Assembly (NCBI RefSeq): GCF_012952295.1
Contig: NZ_JABBCH010000003.1
Span: forward strand, 62,001-126,000
From: Crystallibacter degradans
GTDB lineage: Bacteria > Actinomycetota > Actinomycetes > Actinomycetales > Micrococcaceae
Reading direction: 5' to 3'
Length of the DNA: 64,000 nt
In this document: piece by piece, positions 2,492 to 8,556 of the stretch
How the letters are laid out: every line of letters starts with the position of its first letter
How positions within the stretch are numbered: position 1 is the stretch's first letter
The notes under the pieces: generated by a model
The model's database searches: none
What the model saw: the letters and a program-made list of their open reading frames with translations, nothing else
Told to the model about the DNA's origin: nothing
Position numbers and translations under genes: made by a program

Positions 2492-3298
2492 CTAGAGGGC
2501 GGCCCGGATCAGATCGGCGTTGTCGCTGAGCCAAGCTTCGGCCCTGGGCATCCGGTCCTTCACGCCTTCGTCCCACCAGCGCCGGAAGACAGGGTCGGCG
2601 TCGGCGGCAGCCTTGGCGGTGAGCGAGGCGTTGCGGCCGCGCTGAATGGCGACGTCAACCAGCCGGCTTCTTTGCTCGGCGTTCATGCCGTAGGCGTCGA
2701 CGAACAGCCGCACCCGTGCCGGGATGTCCGCTTCCTTCAGCGAGGGCCCCCGGTCTGTCGGATGCAGGAGCGGCGCCCACCAGTAGAGCGCGTTGACGAT
2801 GTCGGCGACCCGGGTAGTCGGCCTGGCCAGGTCGAAGTCGATCAGGGCCGCCGGAACGCCGTTGCGGAAGACGACATTGCCCGGGCAGTAGTCCTGATGG
2901 GAGACCAGTTCGGGCGTAGCGAACAGTGGCTTAACGCCTGGCGGACGGATACCGGGGAGGCTGCCGAACACCGCGCCTTCCGGCGGCGCCCATCCCTGTG
3001 CAGCATCATGCAACCGGCGGATGAGCCGGGCCAGCGCGGCCAGTACCTCCGGGCCCGTTGCCTCTGCGGGCAGCGGTTCCACCGGGATGTCGCCCGGGAC
3101 ATAGGAGAGGACTTCCCGTCCGGCGTCGTCGTAACCGAGCGGGACCGGAGCGGCCTCGAAGCCTTGGGCGTGCAAGTGCGCCAAGTACTGCTGGACGGTA
3201 GCGGTGAACGGGCGGACCGGACGGCGGACCGTGTCCCCGTTTCTGACCACCTCGGTCCAGCCGCCCTCCCCCAACTGCCGCCCGCCGTCGTCGTTCAT
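2492..3298 (-). CDS. Aminoglycoside phosphotransferase (APH)-fold protein
   Basis: A 268-residue kinase-like protein. The APH/choline kinase catalytic loop is HQDYCPGN (H134, D136 as catalytic base, N141 as metal ligand), followed by the metal-binding IDFD (D154). The N-terminal half lacks an obvious glycine-rich loop, which is common in this superfamily. The frame extends upstream to 3358, but the ATG at 3296-3298 has GAGGA at the right distance and is preferred. It is nine bases upstream of the P1-family hydrolase and probably co-transcribed. Members phosphorylate antibiotics, choline, homoserine or sugars; nothing here fixes the substrate, so a resistance role should not be assumed. Confidence 0.8.
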   Translation of the reverse strand: MNDDGGRQLGEGGWTEVVRNGDTVRRPVRPFTATVQQYLAHLHAQGFEAAPVPLGYDDAGREVLSYVPGDIPVEPLPAEATGPEVLAALARLIRRLHDAAQGWAPPEGAVFGSLPGIRPPGVKPLFATPELVSHQDYCPGNVVFRNGVPAALIDFDLARPTTRVADIVNALYWWAPLLHPTDRGPSLKEADIPARVRLFVDAYGMNAEQRSRLVDVAIQRGRNASLTAKAAADADPVFRRWWDEGVKDRMPRAEAWLSDNADLIRAAL

Positions 3299-3423
3299 TG
3301 GATCCTCGATCGTGTGAACCCTTCCACAGCTCCGTCGTGGGGCTTTTGAAACGGCCATTCGTTCGCCCAGCGCCCCGTCCGCCTATCGACAGCAACAACG
3401 CCGAAGGCAATAGGACACAATTA

Positions 3424-3457
3424 TCTAATGTTGTCTTGGACCCTGAACACCGAAAGG
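3424..3457 (+). promoter_or_regulatory. Candidate -10 box and Shine-Dalgarno of the nuclease gene
   Basis: In the divergent gap, TCTAAT (3424-3429) matches the -10 consensus at five of six positions, with no good -35 partner. AAAGG (3453-3457) lies ten bases before the TTG at 3468. An in-frame TGA at 3444 closes the frame upstream, so TTG 3468 is the only start near a ribosome site; the next in-frame ATG is at 3567. Confidence 0.35.
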
Positions 3458-3467
3458 CGCAACTGAA

Positions 3468-5567
3468 TTGACCGAGGATACCGTCGCATCATCGCCCAAC
3501 GAACAGGCCGTTGTGAGTGAACAGTCAACAGTTGTCCCGCTCCCATGGTCCTCTAGGATTCTTGCAATGCCCTACATGCCAGGTGGTGGCAAGAACCAGG
3601 TCCAGACCTTGGAGACGTTATTGTCAGCTGTCGTTACCCAGGAAGGGCGCGTTGCCGCCATGGTGGACTTGGGCGACGGAGTTCAACGCGAGCTCCGTGA
3701 CGCTGTGAAACAGGTCGCACCGGCAGGGCTTATCGCCCATCTGGATCGAGAGCACTTGGACGTATCTGAGGAGGCGCGGTTATGGATGTATTCACGTGAC
3801 CCCCATGACCTCCTCGCAATCTTCCACCGTCATGTGCGATTCGTCGGTGAACTCCTCCATGCCCTTGCAGATGGGGCTAGGACGGTGCGAGAACTAATGG
3901 ATGTGGCAGCGAGGGAGTACCAGTTGCAGTGGACGACACTGGATCAGGTCCGAAGACGCGTCACCTGGATGTCGGCTTTGGGGCTAGTGGAGTACAAAAC
4001 CAACACGCACATCGGATTGACCGACGCTGGGCGGAAGGCGGTGACTGGCTTGCAACTTGGCGGCCCCGAGCAAAGGCCACGGACGGCAGCAACCGTCACG
4101 AACGTCCCTGAGCCGCCTCAACCGATCGCTGCGCTCGTCAAGGGCCTGACACCGGAGGTCCTGATGGGCAGAAACTCGTCCCTTGGGTACATACCACGCG
4201 GGAACGGTGAAACCGAGATTGTCGAATCCCTATACCTGCTGGTCAATGCTTCATCCCCAAGCATCTCAAGGGCCGACCTACTCGCCTTTGCACAAAGAAC
4301 TTTCGAATTGTCTGAGAGCTCCTTCAGCGCTGTCATGACAACCCTCAATAAGTCAGGCCTCCTCGAACAGACCGGGTTTAATATTTACTCCCCGTCCGAG
4401 CCCGCCACCGCATGGCTGGAGACTCAAAGCACCTTAGACCTCGTGCTCATCCTGCACCGCAGATTCCTGTTCATGCTAGAGATCATTCCGTTGCTGGCAG
4501 AGTTTGATAGGGCTCCCGACCTCGCTCGGGCTGCGTACGCGCACTACGGTATGGCAAGGGTGGATGTTGGAGGGGTCAGAACCCGACTTCAGCTTCTCAA
4601 GGCAGCCGGCCTCATCGAGGAGCGTGCTAACTGGAGGTACCAGCCAACGCCGTTGGGAGAACGCATTGCCCTCGAAATTCCTATACAGACTGCTTTAGAC
4701 GAGTATGACGACGAGACCAATGGTTTTGACCAGCCGTCGAGAGACCACGGCCCGTCGCCGGCAAACAAATTGGCTCTCGAGTTGGAATCTGCGGCAGTGG
4801 CCGGCGATTCCCCGATCCGTTTGGAGAAGGCTGTGGCTGAATCCTTCTCCTACCTGGGATTCGAGGCGCGGCACATCGGAGGTGGAGGTAAGACAGATGT
4901 GCTCGCCACCGTCGATAATCCCGACGGGAAACCGGTGCGGGTGATTCTTGATGCGAAGGCTGCCCGCAGTGGGACGGTTAATGAAGGAGCAGTCTCTTTC
5001 GACACTCTCTCGGAGCATAAGGAGAAGCACCACGCCGACTTCGTCGCCCTCGTCGGGCCAGGTTTCGATAGTGGCCGTGTCCGCGCTCGGGCCGAACAAA
5101 ACGGCGTTGCCCTCGTCACGGTGAATGAACTCTGCCGGACACTTCGACGACATGAAACGACGCCACGGTCCCCCTCTGCTTACCTGGGTCTCGTGGATTC
5201 CCGCCCAGGGGCGCGAAAGGACCTTGAAAGTGGGTGGTCGCATGCCGAGCGCCGGATCATGCTGCTCTCTCAGGTCGTGGCAGTGCTCGCTCAGGAAGCC
5301 CGTGAAGCAGATGATGTAACGCACGGTGCCCTATCTGCGGACCAGATCTACCTCATCGTCAGGGACGAAATCGACCCCCGGCCCTCAACCAAAGACATCG
5401 AAGAGGTATTGCAATTTCTCGAACACCCCCTGATCGCTTCCATTGCCCACGCGACTGGAAGTGCGGGACGATCCATCACCTATCGGCTGATCGATGCCCC
5501 GGGGTTGGTCGCAGCCAAGGTTGAGGCGCTCGGACGAAGCATCGCCCGCGTTGATATGGAGAACTAA
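3468..5567 (+). CDS. Solitary FokI-like endonuclease with duplicated winged-helix DNA-binding half
   Basis: A 699-residue protein. Residues 47-194 and 252-405 look like two copies of one module about 210 residues apart: APAGLIAHL pairs with NKSGLLEQT, IFHRHVRFVGELL (118-130) with ILHRRFLFMLEII (328-340), and GLVEYKTN (172-179) with GLIEERAN (381-388). Each ends in a winged-helix pattern. A linker (406-440) leads to a PD-(D/E)XK domain with GGGGKTD (D477) and VILDAKA (D495, K497). Spacing and flanks resemble the FokI cleavage domain (D450, D467, K469), including a later strand FVALVGPGF and ALVTVNELC. Residues 600-675 look like another winged helix, absent from FokI. Start is TTG. GC is visibly lower than in neighbouring genes, suggesting transfer. 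No methyltransferase is present. It could be a type II/IIS-like, modification-dependent or repair nuclease. Confidence 0.8.
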   Translation: MTEDTVASSPNEQAVVSEQSTVVPLPWSSRILAMPYMPGGGKNQVQTLETLLSAVVTQEGRVAAMVDLGDGVQRELRDAVKQVAPAGLIAHLDREHLDVSEEARLWMYSRDPHDLLAIFHRHVRFVGELLHALADGARTVRELMDVAAREYQLQWTTLDQVRRRVTWMSALGLVEYKTNTHIGLTDAGRKAVTGLQLGGPEQRPRTAATVTNVPEPPQPIAALVKGLTPEVLMGRNSSLGYIPRGNGETEIVESLYLLVNASSPSISRADLLAFAQRTFELSESSFSAVMTTLNKSGLLEQTGFNIYSPSEPATAWLETQSTLDLVLILHRRFLFMLEIIPLLAEFDRAPDLARAAYAHYGMARVDVGGVRTRLQLLKAAGLIEERANWRYQPTPLGERIALEIPIQTALDEYDDETNGFDQPSRDHGPSPANKLALELESAAVAGDSPIRLEKAVAESFSYLGFEARHIGGGGKTDVLATVDNPDGKPVRVILDAKAARSGTVNEGAVSFDTLSEHKEKHHADFVALVGPGFDSGRVRARAEQNGVALVTVNELCRTLRRHETTPRSPSAYLGLVDSRPGARKDLESGWSHAERRIMLLSQVVAVLAQEAREADDVTHGALSADQIYLIVRDEIDPRPSTKDIEEVLQFLEHPLIASIAHATGSAGRSITYRLIDAPGLVAAKVEALGRSIARVDMEN

Positions 5568-5591
5568 CTCGCTGCGCGTGAAACGCCCACA

Positions 5592-6059
5592 TTAGTGCGC
5601 GTTGGCCAGTTCGGTCCGCAACTCCTCTTCAAGGGCAGCGAGTGCCTCGGCAGCGCCCACGATGGCCTGGATTTGCTCGGCCGGAAGCTTCAGCAGGGCC
5701 GTGCTGATGGATCCGGACCACGCTTCCTCAATGAGCCTCTTGTTTTTCTGTGCCTTTTCACTCGGGTGCAGCAAGGCCAGCCGACGGTCGGTCGGGCTGG
5801 TTCTCCGCTCAACCAGCCCGCGGTCAGCCAGCGCCTTCACGGCAGCGCTGGCATTACTCTGGCGCAACCCCAGTTGCAGGGCAAGCTCTGAAACGGTCAG
5901 GCCCGGTTCCCGGTGGACGCGCATGAGCACCACCAGCTCGGAGGTGGGCAGCGGATCAAGGCCGGCCGCCGAGGGAAGAATGCGGTGGATGGTCCAGGAA
6001 AGGGAGTGGAGCAGCGAGCCCAATTCGTGGGAGGGAACGCTGGTTGTGGTCAACGGCAT
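5592..6059 (-). CDS. MarR-family transcriptional regulator
   Basis: A 155-residue winged-helix regulator. The recognition region LTVSELALQLGLRQSNASAA and the wing LVERRTSPTDRR, with the conserved DRR, are typical of MarR, and N- and C-terminal helices would form the dimer. It is divergent from the MFS exporter at 6151 with an AT-rich gap of 91 bases between them. That is the classic layout in which a MarR repressor controls itself and a drug pump until a ligand binds. The stop lies 25 bases from the end of the nuclease gene, which converges on it. Confidence 0.93.
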   Translation of the reverse strand: MPLTTTSVPSHELGSLLHSLSWTIHRILPSAAGLDPLPTSELVVLMRVHREPGLTVSELALQLGLRQSNASAAVKALADRGLVERRTSPTDRRLALLHPSEKAQKNKRLIEEAWSGSISTALLKLPAEQIQAIVGAAEALAALEEELRTELANAH

Positions 6060-6077
6060 AGCCCAATCTTAGTCCAC

Positions 6078-6107
6078 ATCTTGATATATATATAAAAACA
6101 TAATTAA
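6078..6107. promoter_or_regulatory. AT-rich divergent promoter/operator between marR-type gene and MFS gene
   Basis: The gap holds TTGATATATATATAAAAAC, a striking AT run in a high-GC genome, with an imperfect palindrome (TTGATATATATA) of the size MarR dimers bind. TTGATA (6081-6086) could serve as a -35 box for the plus-strand pump. On the minus strand TATATA elements lie about 19 bases from TTGGCC for the regulator. No single promoter is clearly best. Confidence 0.35.
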
Positions 6108-6150
6108 GTTGGAGGCCAACCCAATTCTCTTCCTGGTTAGGAATCCCGCT

Positions 6151-7416
6151 ATGACCATGGCTCCCCCACGCGATGCCCCACGTTTGACGGGCGCGGTGAT
6201 CGGGGTGCTGGCCCTGCTGACCGCGGTGAGCCCGCTTGCCACCGACATGTACCTGCCGGCCTTCCCGCAAATGGCAAGCGACCTGGGGGCTTCGGCCACC
6301 AGCATCCAGTTGACCCTGACGACGTTCCTGATCGGGCTGGCGCTCGGCCAGCTAATCATCGGTCCCTTGTCCGACGGCACGGGACGGCGGAAGCCGCTGC
6401 TGATCGGCACTGCCATCTGCCTGCTGGCCAGCATCGGCACTGCCGTTGCGCCCAGCGTCGAACTCCTCATCACAGCGCGCTTCGTGCAGGGTTTGAGCGG
6501 CGCCGCAGGCGTGGTGCTCGCCCGCGCCGTTATCTCCGACTCCGCCAAGGGTATCCAGGCTGCCAAGGTGCTGGGGGTCATGATGATCATCCTTGGCATT
6601 GCTCCGGTTCTGGCTCCGGTGCTCGGCGGCGCCATCATCGCCGGCTTGGGCTGGCGCGGTGTCTTCTGGGTGGTTGCGTTCCTGGTTGCCCTGATGTTCA
6701 TCGCCGCACTGTGCTTCATCAAGGAAACGCTCCTGGCGTCCGAGCGCCAGGGCGGCGGGCTCAAGGCCATGCTCCGCAGCGGCAGGACCGTGCTCGCCAA
6801 CCGGAACTACGTGGGCTACCTGGTCACCTTCTGTTTCGCCTTCGGCGCCATGTTCGCCTACATTTCGGCGTCGCCGTTTGTCCTGCAGAACATCCTGGGC
6901 CTGTCCACCACCACGTACTCGCTGGTCTTCGGGCTCAATTCCCTGGCCATCATGATCTCCGCGATCATCGCCACCAAGCTGGCCGGGCGCGTGGACTTCC
7001 GCAAGATGCTGGGCGGTGGCGTCATCGCCCTCGTCCTGGCAACCCTAGCCCTGCTAACAGTGGTGTTCACCGGCGTCGCGATGACCCCCACCCTGCTGCT
7101 GCTCTTCGTCTTCCAAGGCTCGCTGGGGTTCATCTACGGCAACGCCACCGCCCTTGCCCTGGGTGAAGCGCGGCACCACGCGGGCACCGGCTCGGCGTTC
7201 CTCGGTGCTTTCCAATTCATCCTTAGCGCCGCGGTTTCCCCGCTCGTCGGATTGGCGGGCGAGCACGATGCCCGCCCCATGGCGATCGCCATGGCCTTAG
7301 CCGCGCTCATCTCCGCAGCCGGCTTCTTCCTGCTGACCTGCAGCCGCTCCACTGAGGCGAGCGACGCCGAAACAGAGCCTGCCCAGCCCGAAATGAGCGA
7401 AGCGGCAGCCCGCTGA
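6151..7416 (+). CDS. MFS multidrug exporter, Bcr/CflA type
   Basis: A 421-residue, 12-helix major facilitator protein. The N-terminal SPLATDMYLPAFPQMA and the loop 2-3 motif GPLSDGTGRRKPLL are hallmarks of Bcr/CflA drug/H+ antiporters, and RFVQGLSGAAGVVLARAVI is the usual helix-5 region. The frame opens at 6109 with a TTG, but GGAGG there is too close to serve it. The ATG at 6151 has AGGA about nine bases upstream and is chosen; ATG 6157 is also possible. Likely controlled by the divergent MarR protein. Its stop nearly touches the convergent gene at 7418. Substrate unknown. Confidence 0.9.
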   Translation: MTMAPPRDAPRLTGAVIGVLALLTAVSPLATDMYLPAFPQMASDLGASATSIQLTLTTFLIGLALGQLIIGPLSDGTGRRKPLLIGTAICLLASIGTAVAPSVELLITARFVQGLSGAAGVVLARAVISDSAKGIQAAKVLGVMMIILGIAPVLAPVLGGAIIAGLGWRGVFWVVAFLVALMFIAALCFIKETLLASERQGGGLKAMLRSGRTVLANRNYVGYLVTFCFAFGAMFAYISASPFVLQNILGLSTTTYSLVFGLNSLAIMISAIIATKLAGRVDFRKMLGGGVIALVLATLALLTVVFTGVAMTPTLLLLFVFQGSLGFIYGNATALALGEARHHAGTGSAFLGAFQFILSAAVSPLVGLAGEHDARPMAIAMALAALISAAGFFLLTCSRSTEASDAETEPAQPEMSEAAAR

Positions 7417-7417
7417 C

Positions 7418-7957
7418 TCAGAGCTTGGTGACGTCGATGGTGCCGGGCTTCATGTCGATGGCTTCGCAGAACTGCTCGACGTTGGCGGGCAGACCGTCCG
7501 GCGTGGCGAAGACGGCGTAGCGCCAGTCGTCCCGGATGCAGGTCACCATGGCCGGCGGCTCGTTTCCCGGCGACTGCTGGTCCTGCCCTTCCAGCGGTGC
7601 TTCGCTCCAGAGTGCCCCGCAGAGTTCCTGCGGGTCGATCCGCTGCGGCACGCCGGACAGGTCCACCATGACGCTGCCGTCCGGATTGGTGCCCACTATC
7701 TCGCCGCCGCTGGCAAAGCCGGCCTCCTGCTGCGGGACATCGGGTGTGGAGCCCATGTAGCAGATGGCGGTGAAGCGCTTCTGGTCGTCGGTGAGGTTCA
7801 GAATGGCAAAGCCCGCGGTGGCGGAACCGGCCAGCACCGGCACGGCGACCGCGGCGGTGAGCACCCGCCGTCGTCGTTTGTGGCGGGCGATGTCCTGCGT
7901 AATCCGGGCACTCAGCGCCGAGCGCACCCGCGCTTTACTGACCTGGAGTTCGTCCAT
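7418..7957 (-). CDS. Single-pass membrane protein, probable ECF sigma partner (anti-sigma-like)
   Basis: A 179-residue protein with a basic cytoplasmic N-terminus (MDELQVSKARVRSALSARIT, then RHKRRRR), one membrane helix (about 32-54) and an exported C-terminal part of about 120 residues holding four cysteines that could form disulfides. It begins two bases after the sigma factor gene stops, so the pair is translationally linked. The topology fits an anti-sigma factor, but there is no HXXXCXXC zinc motif and the N-terminal segment is short (about 30 residues). It could instead be a sensor or a regulon product. Anti-sigma function is inferred from position only. Confidence 0.6.
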   Translation of the reverse strand: MDELQVSKARVRSALSARITQDIARHKRRRRVLTAAVAVPVLAGSATAGFAILNLTDDQKRFTAICYMGSTPDVPQQEAGFASGGEIVGTNPDGSVMVDLSGVPQRIDPQELCGALWSEAPLEGQDQQSPGNEPPAMVTCIRDDWRYAVFATPDGLPANVEQFCEAIDMKPGTIDVTKL

Positions 7958-7959
7958 TC

Positions 7960-8556
7960 CTATTCACCTTCTTCCGCTGTGAGCACGTCCGAAAACTGGT
8001 TCTTCAGCCGGGTGCGCAGGCGCAGCACCCGGTTCTTGACCGCGGCCTTGGTCAGGCCGAGTTCCTTGGCAATATCACCGTGCGGGCGGCCGCCGACGAA
8101 GTGGACCAGGAAGATCCGCTGGTCTGCTTCCGGCATGGCCGACACCGCGCGGTGGACCCGGTTGAGGGTGTCCTGCGCGATGACTTTCTCTTCGGTCGAG
8201 ACCTCGGCAAGAACGCGCCCGATGTCCAACCGGTCGATGTCCAGCATGTGCTGATTGCCCTTTTTGCGCAGGTGGTTCGCCGCCAAGTATTTGGCTGTGG
8301 TGTAAAGCCACGGAAAGACAGAGCCGTTGATGCACTTGATCCGCTTCGCCTTCTCCCACATGAGGAAGAACGTTTCCTGCGCCAGCTCCTCCGCGGCCCC
8401 GACGTCGCCGGTGATCCTGCCCAGGTACCGCAGCACACCGTCGGCATGGCGATCGTAGAGCACACCGAACGCGTCTTCGTCCCTGCGCCCGCACCGCCGG
8501 AGCAGCGCGGACTCATCCGGCGGCGCTTCGGCCGCCGGCTCGTCATTGGCTGCCAT
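7960..8556 (-). CDS. ECF-type RNA polymerase sigma factor
   Basis: A 198-residue sigma-70 family protein with region 2 (LYDRHADGVLRYLG, then AEELAQETFFLMWEKA and FPWLYTTAKYLAANHLRKK) and region 4 (MPEADQRIFLVHFVGGRPHG, then KELGLTKAAVKNRVLRLRTR), and no regions 1 or 3. This is the extracytoplasmic-function layout. Its ATG directly abuts the stop of the crystallin-like gene upstream, and the membrane protein follows two bases downstream, so the three genes form one transcription unit. Target promoters cannot be read from this window. Confidence 0.93.
   Translation of the reverse strand: MAANDEPAAEAPPDESALLRRCGRRDEDAFGVLYDRHADGVLRYLGRITGDVGAAEELAQETFFLMWEKAKRIKCINGSVFPWLYTTAKYLAANHLRKKGNQHMLDIDRLDIGRVLAEVSTEEKVIAQDTLNRVHRAVSAMPEADQRIFLVHFVGGRPHGDIAKELGLTKAAVKNRVLRLRTRLKNQFSDVLTAEEGE

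Follow-up and report, generated by a model that had tools for sequence, protein, structure and literature searches.

The gene at 3468..5567 (plus strand) of the window, the whole 64,000-nucleotide stretch of Crystallibacter degradans DNA analysed here, encodes a protein of 699 residues, P0001, which on the evidence of sequence comparisons is rather probably a stand-alone modification-dependent (type IV) restriction endonuclease, with a duplicated double-winged-helix module in place of the usual sensor. We propose that the two tandem modules would bind double-stranded DNA and check it for a base that is modified and lies within some sequence context, and that this binding would release or position a FokI/Mrr-like PD-(D/E)XK domain; with one active site per chain, a second chain would be needed for a double-strand break near the site. 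A host lacking the targeted modification would have no need of a protective methyltransferase, and the nuclease gene could therefore move by itself, as defence cargo consisting of one gene. The parts of this proposal that we infer are DNA binding by the modules, dependence on a modification and its kind, dimerisation and cleavage outside the site.

Gene and coding constraint

The reading frame opens with a TTG codon, 10 nt ahead of which stands GAAAGG, a ribosome-binding-site-like hexamer (3452..3457, plus strand). Both the hexamer and the TTG are conserved in the nearest relative of P0001, a protein of Pseudarthrobacter oxydans CC185 (L002) with 80% identity over the full length. The comparison of the two genes gives an overall dN/dS of 0.118, indicative of purifying selection. 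By part, the ratio is 0.136 for the first module (R1), 0.053 for the second (R2), which is the lowest of the parts, 0.138 for the nuclease and 0.084 for the C-terminal domain, with 0.59 for the first 24 codons and 0.31 for the second linker. Since the gene is constrained in this comparison, it is presumably functional.

Tandem modules in the N-terminal half

A preliminary description of this DNA had reported a 699-residue protein with a nuclease core and an internal duplication in its N-terminal half. We confirm this observation, the duplication being established by a profile-profile alignment (hhalign, with profiles of residues 24-205 and 215-412 from 11 proteins) in which R1 and R2 match with an E-value of 1.4e-22 over 173 columns. 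The two homologous copies, of about 180 residues each, lie in tandem: R1 spans residues 25-202 (3540..4073, plus strand), with a domain E-value of 3.7e-63 against a module HMM whose construction included the P0001 sequence, and R2, recognised by the same HMM, spans residues 229-411 (4152..4700, plus strand). A module model made from both copies finds two of them in each of 12 proteins (P0001, L002, L003-L007, L009-L012 and L019). When 35 modules are arranged in a tree, the 12 first copies fall on one side of a branch with weak support (75/56), the 12 second copies on another branch (92/93), and the 11 single modules apart. Because first and second copies group separately, the duplication is probably older than the split between the actinobacterial and the staphylococcal/Priestia copies.

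A pair of winged helices seems to make up each module. Among the relatives, winged-helix models exceed the Pfam cut-off in L010, L011 and L012 (HTH_45) and in L005 and L009 (Mrr_N); in P0001 itself the Pfam scan gives none over cut-off. Sso10a models match the module below cut-off, and in the search of PDB sequences with the module profile Sso10a again ranks first (E 6e-4). DpnI is absent from these sequence-level PDB profile searches of the modules, as is FokI from the matches of the DNA-reading half up to E 10; for this half the PDB profile searches detect no sequence relation to the FokI recognition domain. The domain scan of P0001 reports none of the modified-base sensors EVE (up to E 1), SRA or YTH.

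The nuclease domain

Residues 429-568 (4752..5171, plus strand) form a nuclease domain of the PD-(D/E)XK type, FokI-like/Mrr-like. Its putative active site comprises D477 (4896..4898, plus strand) and the D495-A-K497 motif (4950..4958, plus strand), which align with D450 and D467-T-K469 of FokI, respectively, taking the catalytic residues of the latter to be numbered D450, D467 and K469. D477 is found in all 20 aligned nuclease domains, the D/E and the K of the motif likewise in 20 of 20, and E453 (4824..4826, plus strand) is a further glutamate invariant in the same 20. Against the FokI cleavage domain the P0001 nuclease gives 64 matching columns with 31% identity and an E-value of 1.8e-6, compared with 0.074 for the best of 60 shuffles.

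The Pfam model FokI_cleav_dom is not reported for P0001 and exceeds its cut-off in none of ten scanned same-layout relatives, the best score being 13.0 bits (L009) against a cut-off of 25. Mrr_cat (PF04471) exceeds its cut-off in six of these ten (L003, L005, L007, L010, L011 and L012) and stays below it in L002, L006, L009 and L019, L004 lying outside the scan; for P0001 itself neither Mrr_cat nor a PADLOC match is reported up to E 1. Thus, the FokI-like core claimed at the outset stands as far as the catalytic residues and the pairwise similarity are concerned, but by Pfam the relatives belong with Mrr_cat and not with FokI. The broader PD-(D/E)XK assignment is not contradicted by the structure comparison that had been set as its test, where restriction enzymes of this fold take ranks 1, 2, 3 and 6, with weak scores and with unrelated rows between them. 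The weak fold matches include MspJI, described as a 5mC-dependent enzyme (PMC10101028).

Related architectures

Both the module and the nuclease recur in other combinations. In three actinobacterial proteins (L020-L022) an EVE domain, over the Pfam cut-off in all three, is followed by one module and the same nuclease (nuclease HMM E 1e-37 to 5e-41), and the C-terminal domain is detected in two of them. The module is fused to HNH in L016, L017 and L053 (E 1e-15 to 2e-14), stands together with an SRA-like match (below cut-off) and HNH in L054 (module E 9e-14), is joined to a McrB-like AAA protein in L056 (module E 9e-10; the NCBIfam McrB model stays below its cut-off there, at E 2e-12), and lies behind an Mrr nuclease in L024 (E 1e-16) and L026 (E 3e-14). 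As a control, the module HMM run on 2403 ORFs, duplicates included and drawn from loci chosen around family members rather than at random, returned only such proteins and two weak matches, at E 0.002 (L008) and E 0.02 (an ORF of L009).

EVE is described as a reader of modified bases and EVE-PD(D/E)XK as a predicted type IV class, with EVE appearing as a specificity domain alongside PD-(D/E)XK, HNH and McrB (PMC7641849). We favour modification dependence because the module and EVE are exchanged in L020-L022 and because the module is fused to type IV-like proteins. Among the three options first considered, dependence on modified DNA, activation by a trigger, and a site absent from or blocked in the host, it is the first that these domain swaps favour. 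The swaps speak, however, to the behaviour of the cousins and not to what P0001 reads, and in the EVE-type enzymes the module could be a plain DNA-binding adaptor. A further step, which we put forward tentatively and with some doubt, is that the module would be an undescribed portable reader of DNA modification, used singly after EVE and alongside partners of the SRA-like, HNH, Mrr and McrB-like kinds, and that the tandem pair of P0001 would act as a two-site (half-site) sensor which makes PUA-type sensors unnecessary.

Several of these proteins are of archaeal plasmid origin. The module/SRA-like/HNH protein (L054:3001-4707) is encoded on a Halocatena marina plasmid, and the McrB-like one (L056:4001-7174), with the module N-terminal to the AAA domain, on a Halorubrum ezzemoulense megaplasmid; upstream of the latter lies an annotated DNA adenine methylase and downstream an overlapping gene (7174-8535) with no Pfam match, for which McrC is a guess. 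In Haladaptatus halobius a lone module makes up a protein of 193 aa (L055:2983-3564) adjoining a TcmP-annotated gene. Five haloarchaeal plasmid proteins (L013:7443-8762, L014:7428-8762, L015:7407-8753, L058:5413-6714 and L059:3419-4348) carry a different N-terminal domain ahead of the same nuclease; this domain resembles the N-domain of the HNH enzyme L017:5602-6561 (E 3.5e-15) and has no detectable likeness to EVE. Two further proteins, L023 and L025, whose N-termini we take to be GHKL ATPase-like, carry the nuclease domain at their C-terminal side (HMM E about 1e-13).

The C-terminal domain

A conserved domain occupies residues 575-698 (5190..5561, plus strand). Its HMM matches all 12 same-layout proteins and, weakly (E 2e-10 to 8e-4), two of three EVE-type and three of five haloarchaeal relatives; L059, one of the two haloarchaeal proteins that it misses, is an incomplete piece. 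The segment at residues 600-675 is no more than a putative third winged helix. The presence of this domain in relatives with a differing N-terminal part, together with its low dN/dS, would fit an arrangement in which the modules merely attach the protein to DNA and sensing is left to the C-terminal domain. We consider this very unlikely: the EVE-bearing relatives keep the domain too, as expected of a dimerisation or linker part, and R2 has the lower dN/dS. The C-terminal domain is possibly a dimerisation part.

Comparison with known systems

With FokI (type IIS, 2fok), P0001 shares the D...D-x-K residues in the same order and a winged-helix-like half before the nuclease. It differs from FokI in that no adjacent methyltransferase was found, in not exceeding the Pfam FokI cut-off, in the extra C-terminal domain and the internal duplication, and in a reading half which is not detectably homologous by sequence. 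The EVE-PD(D/E)XK endonucleases, as outlined in PMC7641849, are represented among the relatives by the sister proteins L020-L022; P0001, however, has a second module copy in the place of EVE.

Winged-helix fusions have been described as m6A-dependent type IV enzymes, and 87% of more than 1,000 such genes lack a methyltransferase within a distance of three genes in either direction (PMC11037411). In one of them, HHPV4I, Gm6ATC is reported to be bound by the winged helix with help from HNH, and not by the SRA domain (PMC10101028). P0001 resembles this group (DpnI, HHPV4I/HhiV4I, HtuIII and PD-(D/E)XK-wH, as presented in PMC11037411 and PMC10101028) in being a stand-alone combination of winged helix and nuclease, within a combinatorial set that includes PUA, HNH and NTPase domains. 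In DpnI, by contrast, the nuclease comes first and is followed by one winged helix, whereas P0001 has two modules, that is about four winged helices, before a FokI/Mrr-like nuclease.

The remaining comparison is with Mrr and with PDC-S02, a PADLOC candidate for single-gene defence that has been reported in a Paenarthrobacter genome (PMC11719660). The likeness lies in the Mrr_cat matches of the same-layout relatives. The PDC-S02 model also matches the Priestia relative (residues 273-428, E 1.9e-8) and the Mrr fusion L024 (6e-49), from which matches we infer that PDC-S02 consists of a winged helix and an Mrr-like nuclease. The N-terminal half of P0001 is longer than in Mrr or PDC-S02, and duplicated. 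P0001 would be a variant within the solitary type IV-like endonucleases and not a new category.

If our proposal is correct, a modified-DNA sensor would be built from winged helices only, duplicated into a two-module array, and mounted on a relative of the FokI nuclease, a much-used tool of genome engineering. Such an enzyme would offer a single, manageable protein with which to map a base modification, and would account for an obstacle to foreign DNA in its probably Arthrobacter-like hosts. The shared module links EVE-, Mrr-, HNH- and McrB-type restriction, and one assay of the module could explain several uncharacterised families.

Distribution and acquisition

The preliminary description knew of no described family with this exact layout. 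P0001 is not an isolated oddity: besides the cousin architectures there are 12 proteins with the two-module layout, in Actinomycetota and Bacillota, four of them encoded on plasmids. Within the bacterial family 7 of 395 genomes match; one match (G390) is a short weak piece, which leaves six genomes with the layout, including that of the window. Across the phylum 9 of 396 genomes match at E 1e-10 or better: two with the two-module layout (the window's own and G564), three EVE-type (G468, G490 and G544), two of a one-module Mrr type (G580 and G633) and two with the nuclease domain only (G438 and G672). Among plasmid records there are 13 matches, five of which cover at least 80% of the query, namely Gordonia p174 (54%) and Priestia aryabhattai together with three staphylococcal plasmids (24-29%); one of the staphylococcal records was left out of the further comparisons. 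No relative was found in the phage records and viral contigs searched.

In the genus, 10 genomes of which were searched, only the window's own genome has the gene. It lies in an insert of 2286 bp (3308..5593) that replaces about 23 bp: in two of the nine other genomes the left flank, ending at 3307, and the right flank, starting near 5594, are 23 bp (G007) and 20 bp (G001) apart, that is, the site is empty. The neighbouring genes, both on the minus strand, are phosphotransferase-like on the left (probable extent 2492-3298) and MarR-like on the right (5592-6059), labels read off the sequence without a domain scan. The insert has a GC content of 58.3%, lower than that of the two flanks (64.0% and 64.7%). 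The L002 copy is situated at a different genomic place, its gene matching the window and its flanks not. The single-gene insert is a recent acquisition, and that the gene was acquired had been suspected in the preliminary description; inspection of its ends by eye revealed neither a transposase gene nor a target duplication. The site is variable within the genus, as in G003 the left flank is joined directly to sequence corresponding to window position 7417 onwards, so that this genome lacks 3308-7416, comprising the insert and the MarR-like and transporter-like genes. In the remaining six genomes a contiguous flank match is absent.

The nuclease might instead be a triggered one, self-harming (abortive) or engaged in conflict between plasmids or with phages, and held inactive until it meets a structural trigger, for instance replication intermediates or a phage protein, and not a base modification. 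The nuclease domain of FokI is sequestered until DNA is bound, which offers a precedent, the related domain in the GHKL ATPase-like L023 and L025 suggests other triggers in the superfamily, and the plasmid-borne copies would agree with such a role. The insert, however, is a single gene without a partner, and the domain scans report no signalling domain in P0001, and we hold a triggered nuclease to be distinctly improbable.

Methyltransferases and genomic surroundings

A motif screen, which can miss members, found no amino- or C5-methyltransferase motif in the flanks of any of 12 same-layout loci (the first 20 kb of the window, L002, L009-L012 and L042-L047, with only one flank screened in L042, which starts 20 bp ahead of the gene), and none in the 14 kb adjoining the window on the left. 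The same screen was positive in five of eight other loci, including the annotated methyltransferases of L013 and L015. The gene is thus solitary, as originally described, and the loci do not have the composition of an ordinary type IIS system with a linked methyltransferase. In G132 (L046), about 11 kb separate the nuclease gene from a type I methyltransferase.

Seven carrier genomes were scanned throughout (the window's own, G190, G077, G166, G233, G132 and G564). PF01555 occurs in six of them, PF02384 in five and PF00145 in one (G564). As PF01555 also turns up in 228 of 245 family genomes, it is uninformative on a partner; its occurrence suggests that the mark is tolerated by the hosts. PF00145, the C5-methyltransferase family, is found in none of seven carriers (six of the family plus the L002 genome), compared with 100 of 245 genomes in the family background (one-sided p 0.027; excluding the carriers from the background gives 0.024); for the six family carriers alone (0/6) p is 0.041, and the addition of G564, from outside the family, gives 1/8 and p 0.09-0.10. 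One of three EVE-type carriers (G468) has it. The target of the enzyme could be a cytosine modification, for which this depletion is only a weak hint because three methyltransferase families were tried.

These data also bear on an orphan enzyme of type IIS kind, in which the modules would read unmodified sequence in the manner of FokI, the host being protected by a distant methyltransferase or by rarity of the site. The order of a winged-helix reading half and a FokI-like nuclease would suit such an enzyme, and the window's own genome has three amino-methyltransferase (PF01555) matches, all located on other contigs, one of them apparently the family-wide copy. We nevertheless find it unlikely, given the lack of a methyltransferase motif beside the 12 screened genes, the protection of the site that plasmids and chromosomes of Actinomycetota and Bacillota would all need, and the interchange of module and EVE sensor within the family. 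A modification-dependent enzyme therefore remains our preferred reading.

The surroundings of the other copies are varied. The Priestia copy adjoins ABC-three-component (ABC-3C) genes and an AbiH gene, and the Gordonia copy TnsA-like, Mu-transposase-like, AAA and arsenic-resistance genes. The L046 copy adjoins HerA, DUF4297 (by the PADLOC model only) and type I HsdR, and these three were the only recognised defence genes among ten neighbouring proteins scanned (eight of them also with PADLOC), the seven from four other loci not being so recognised. The defence genes near the Priestia and L046 copies speak for our preferred reading. Around the G077 copy (L043:6472-14449) ORFs of 830, 627 and 431 aa, unmatched by Pfam and PADLOC at E 1e-4, may form an undescribed operon.
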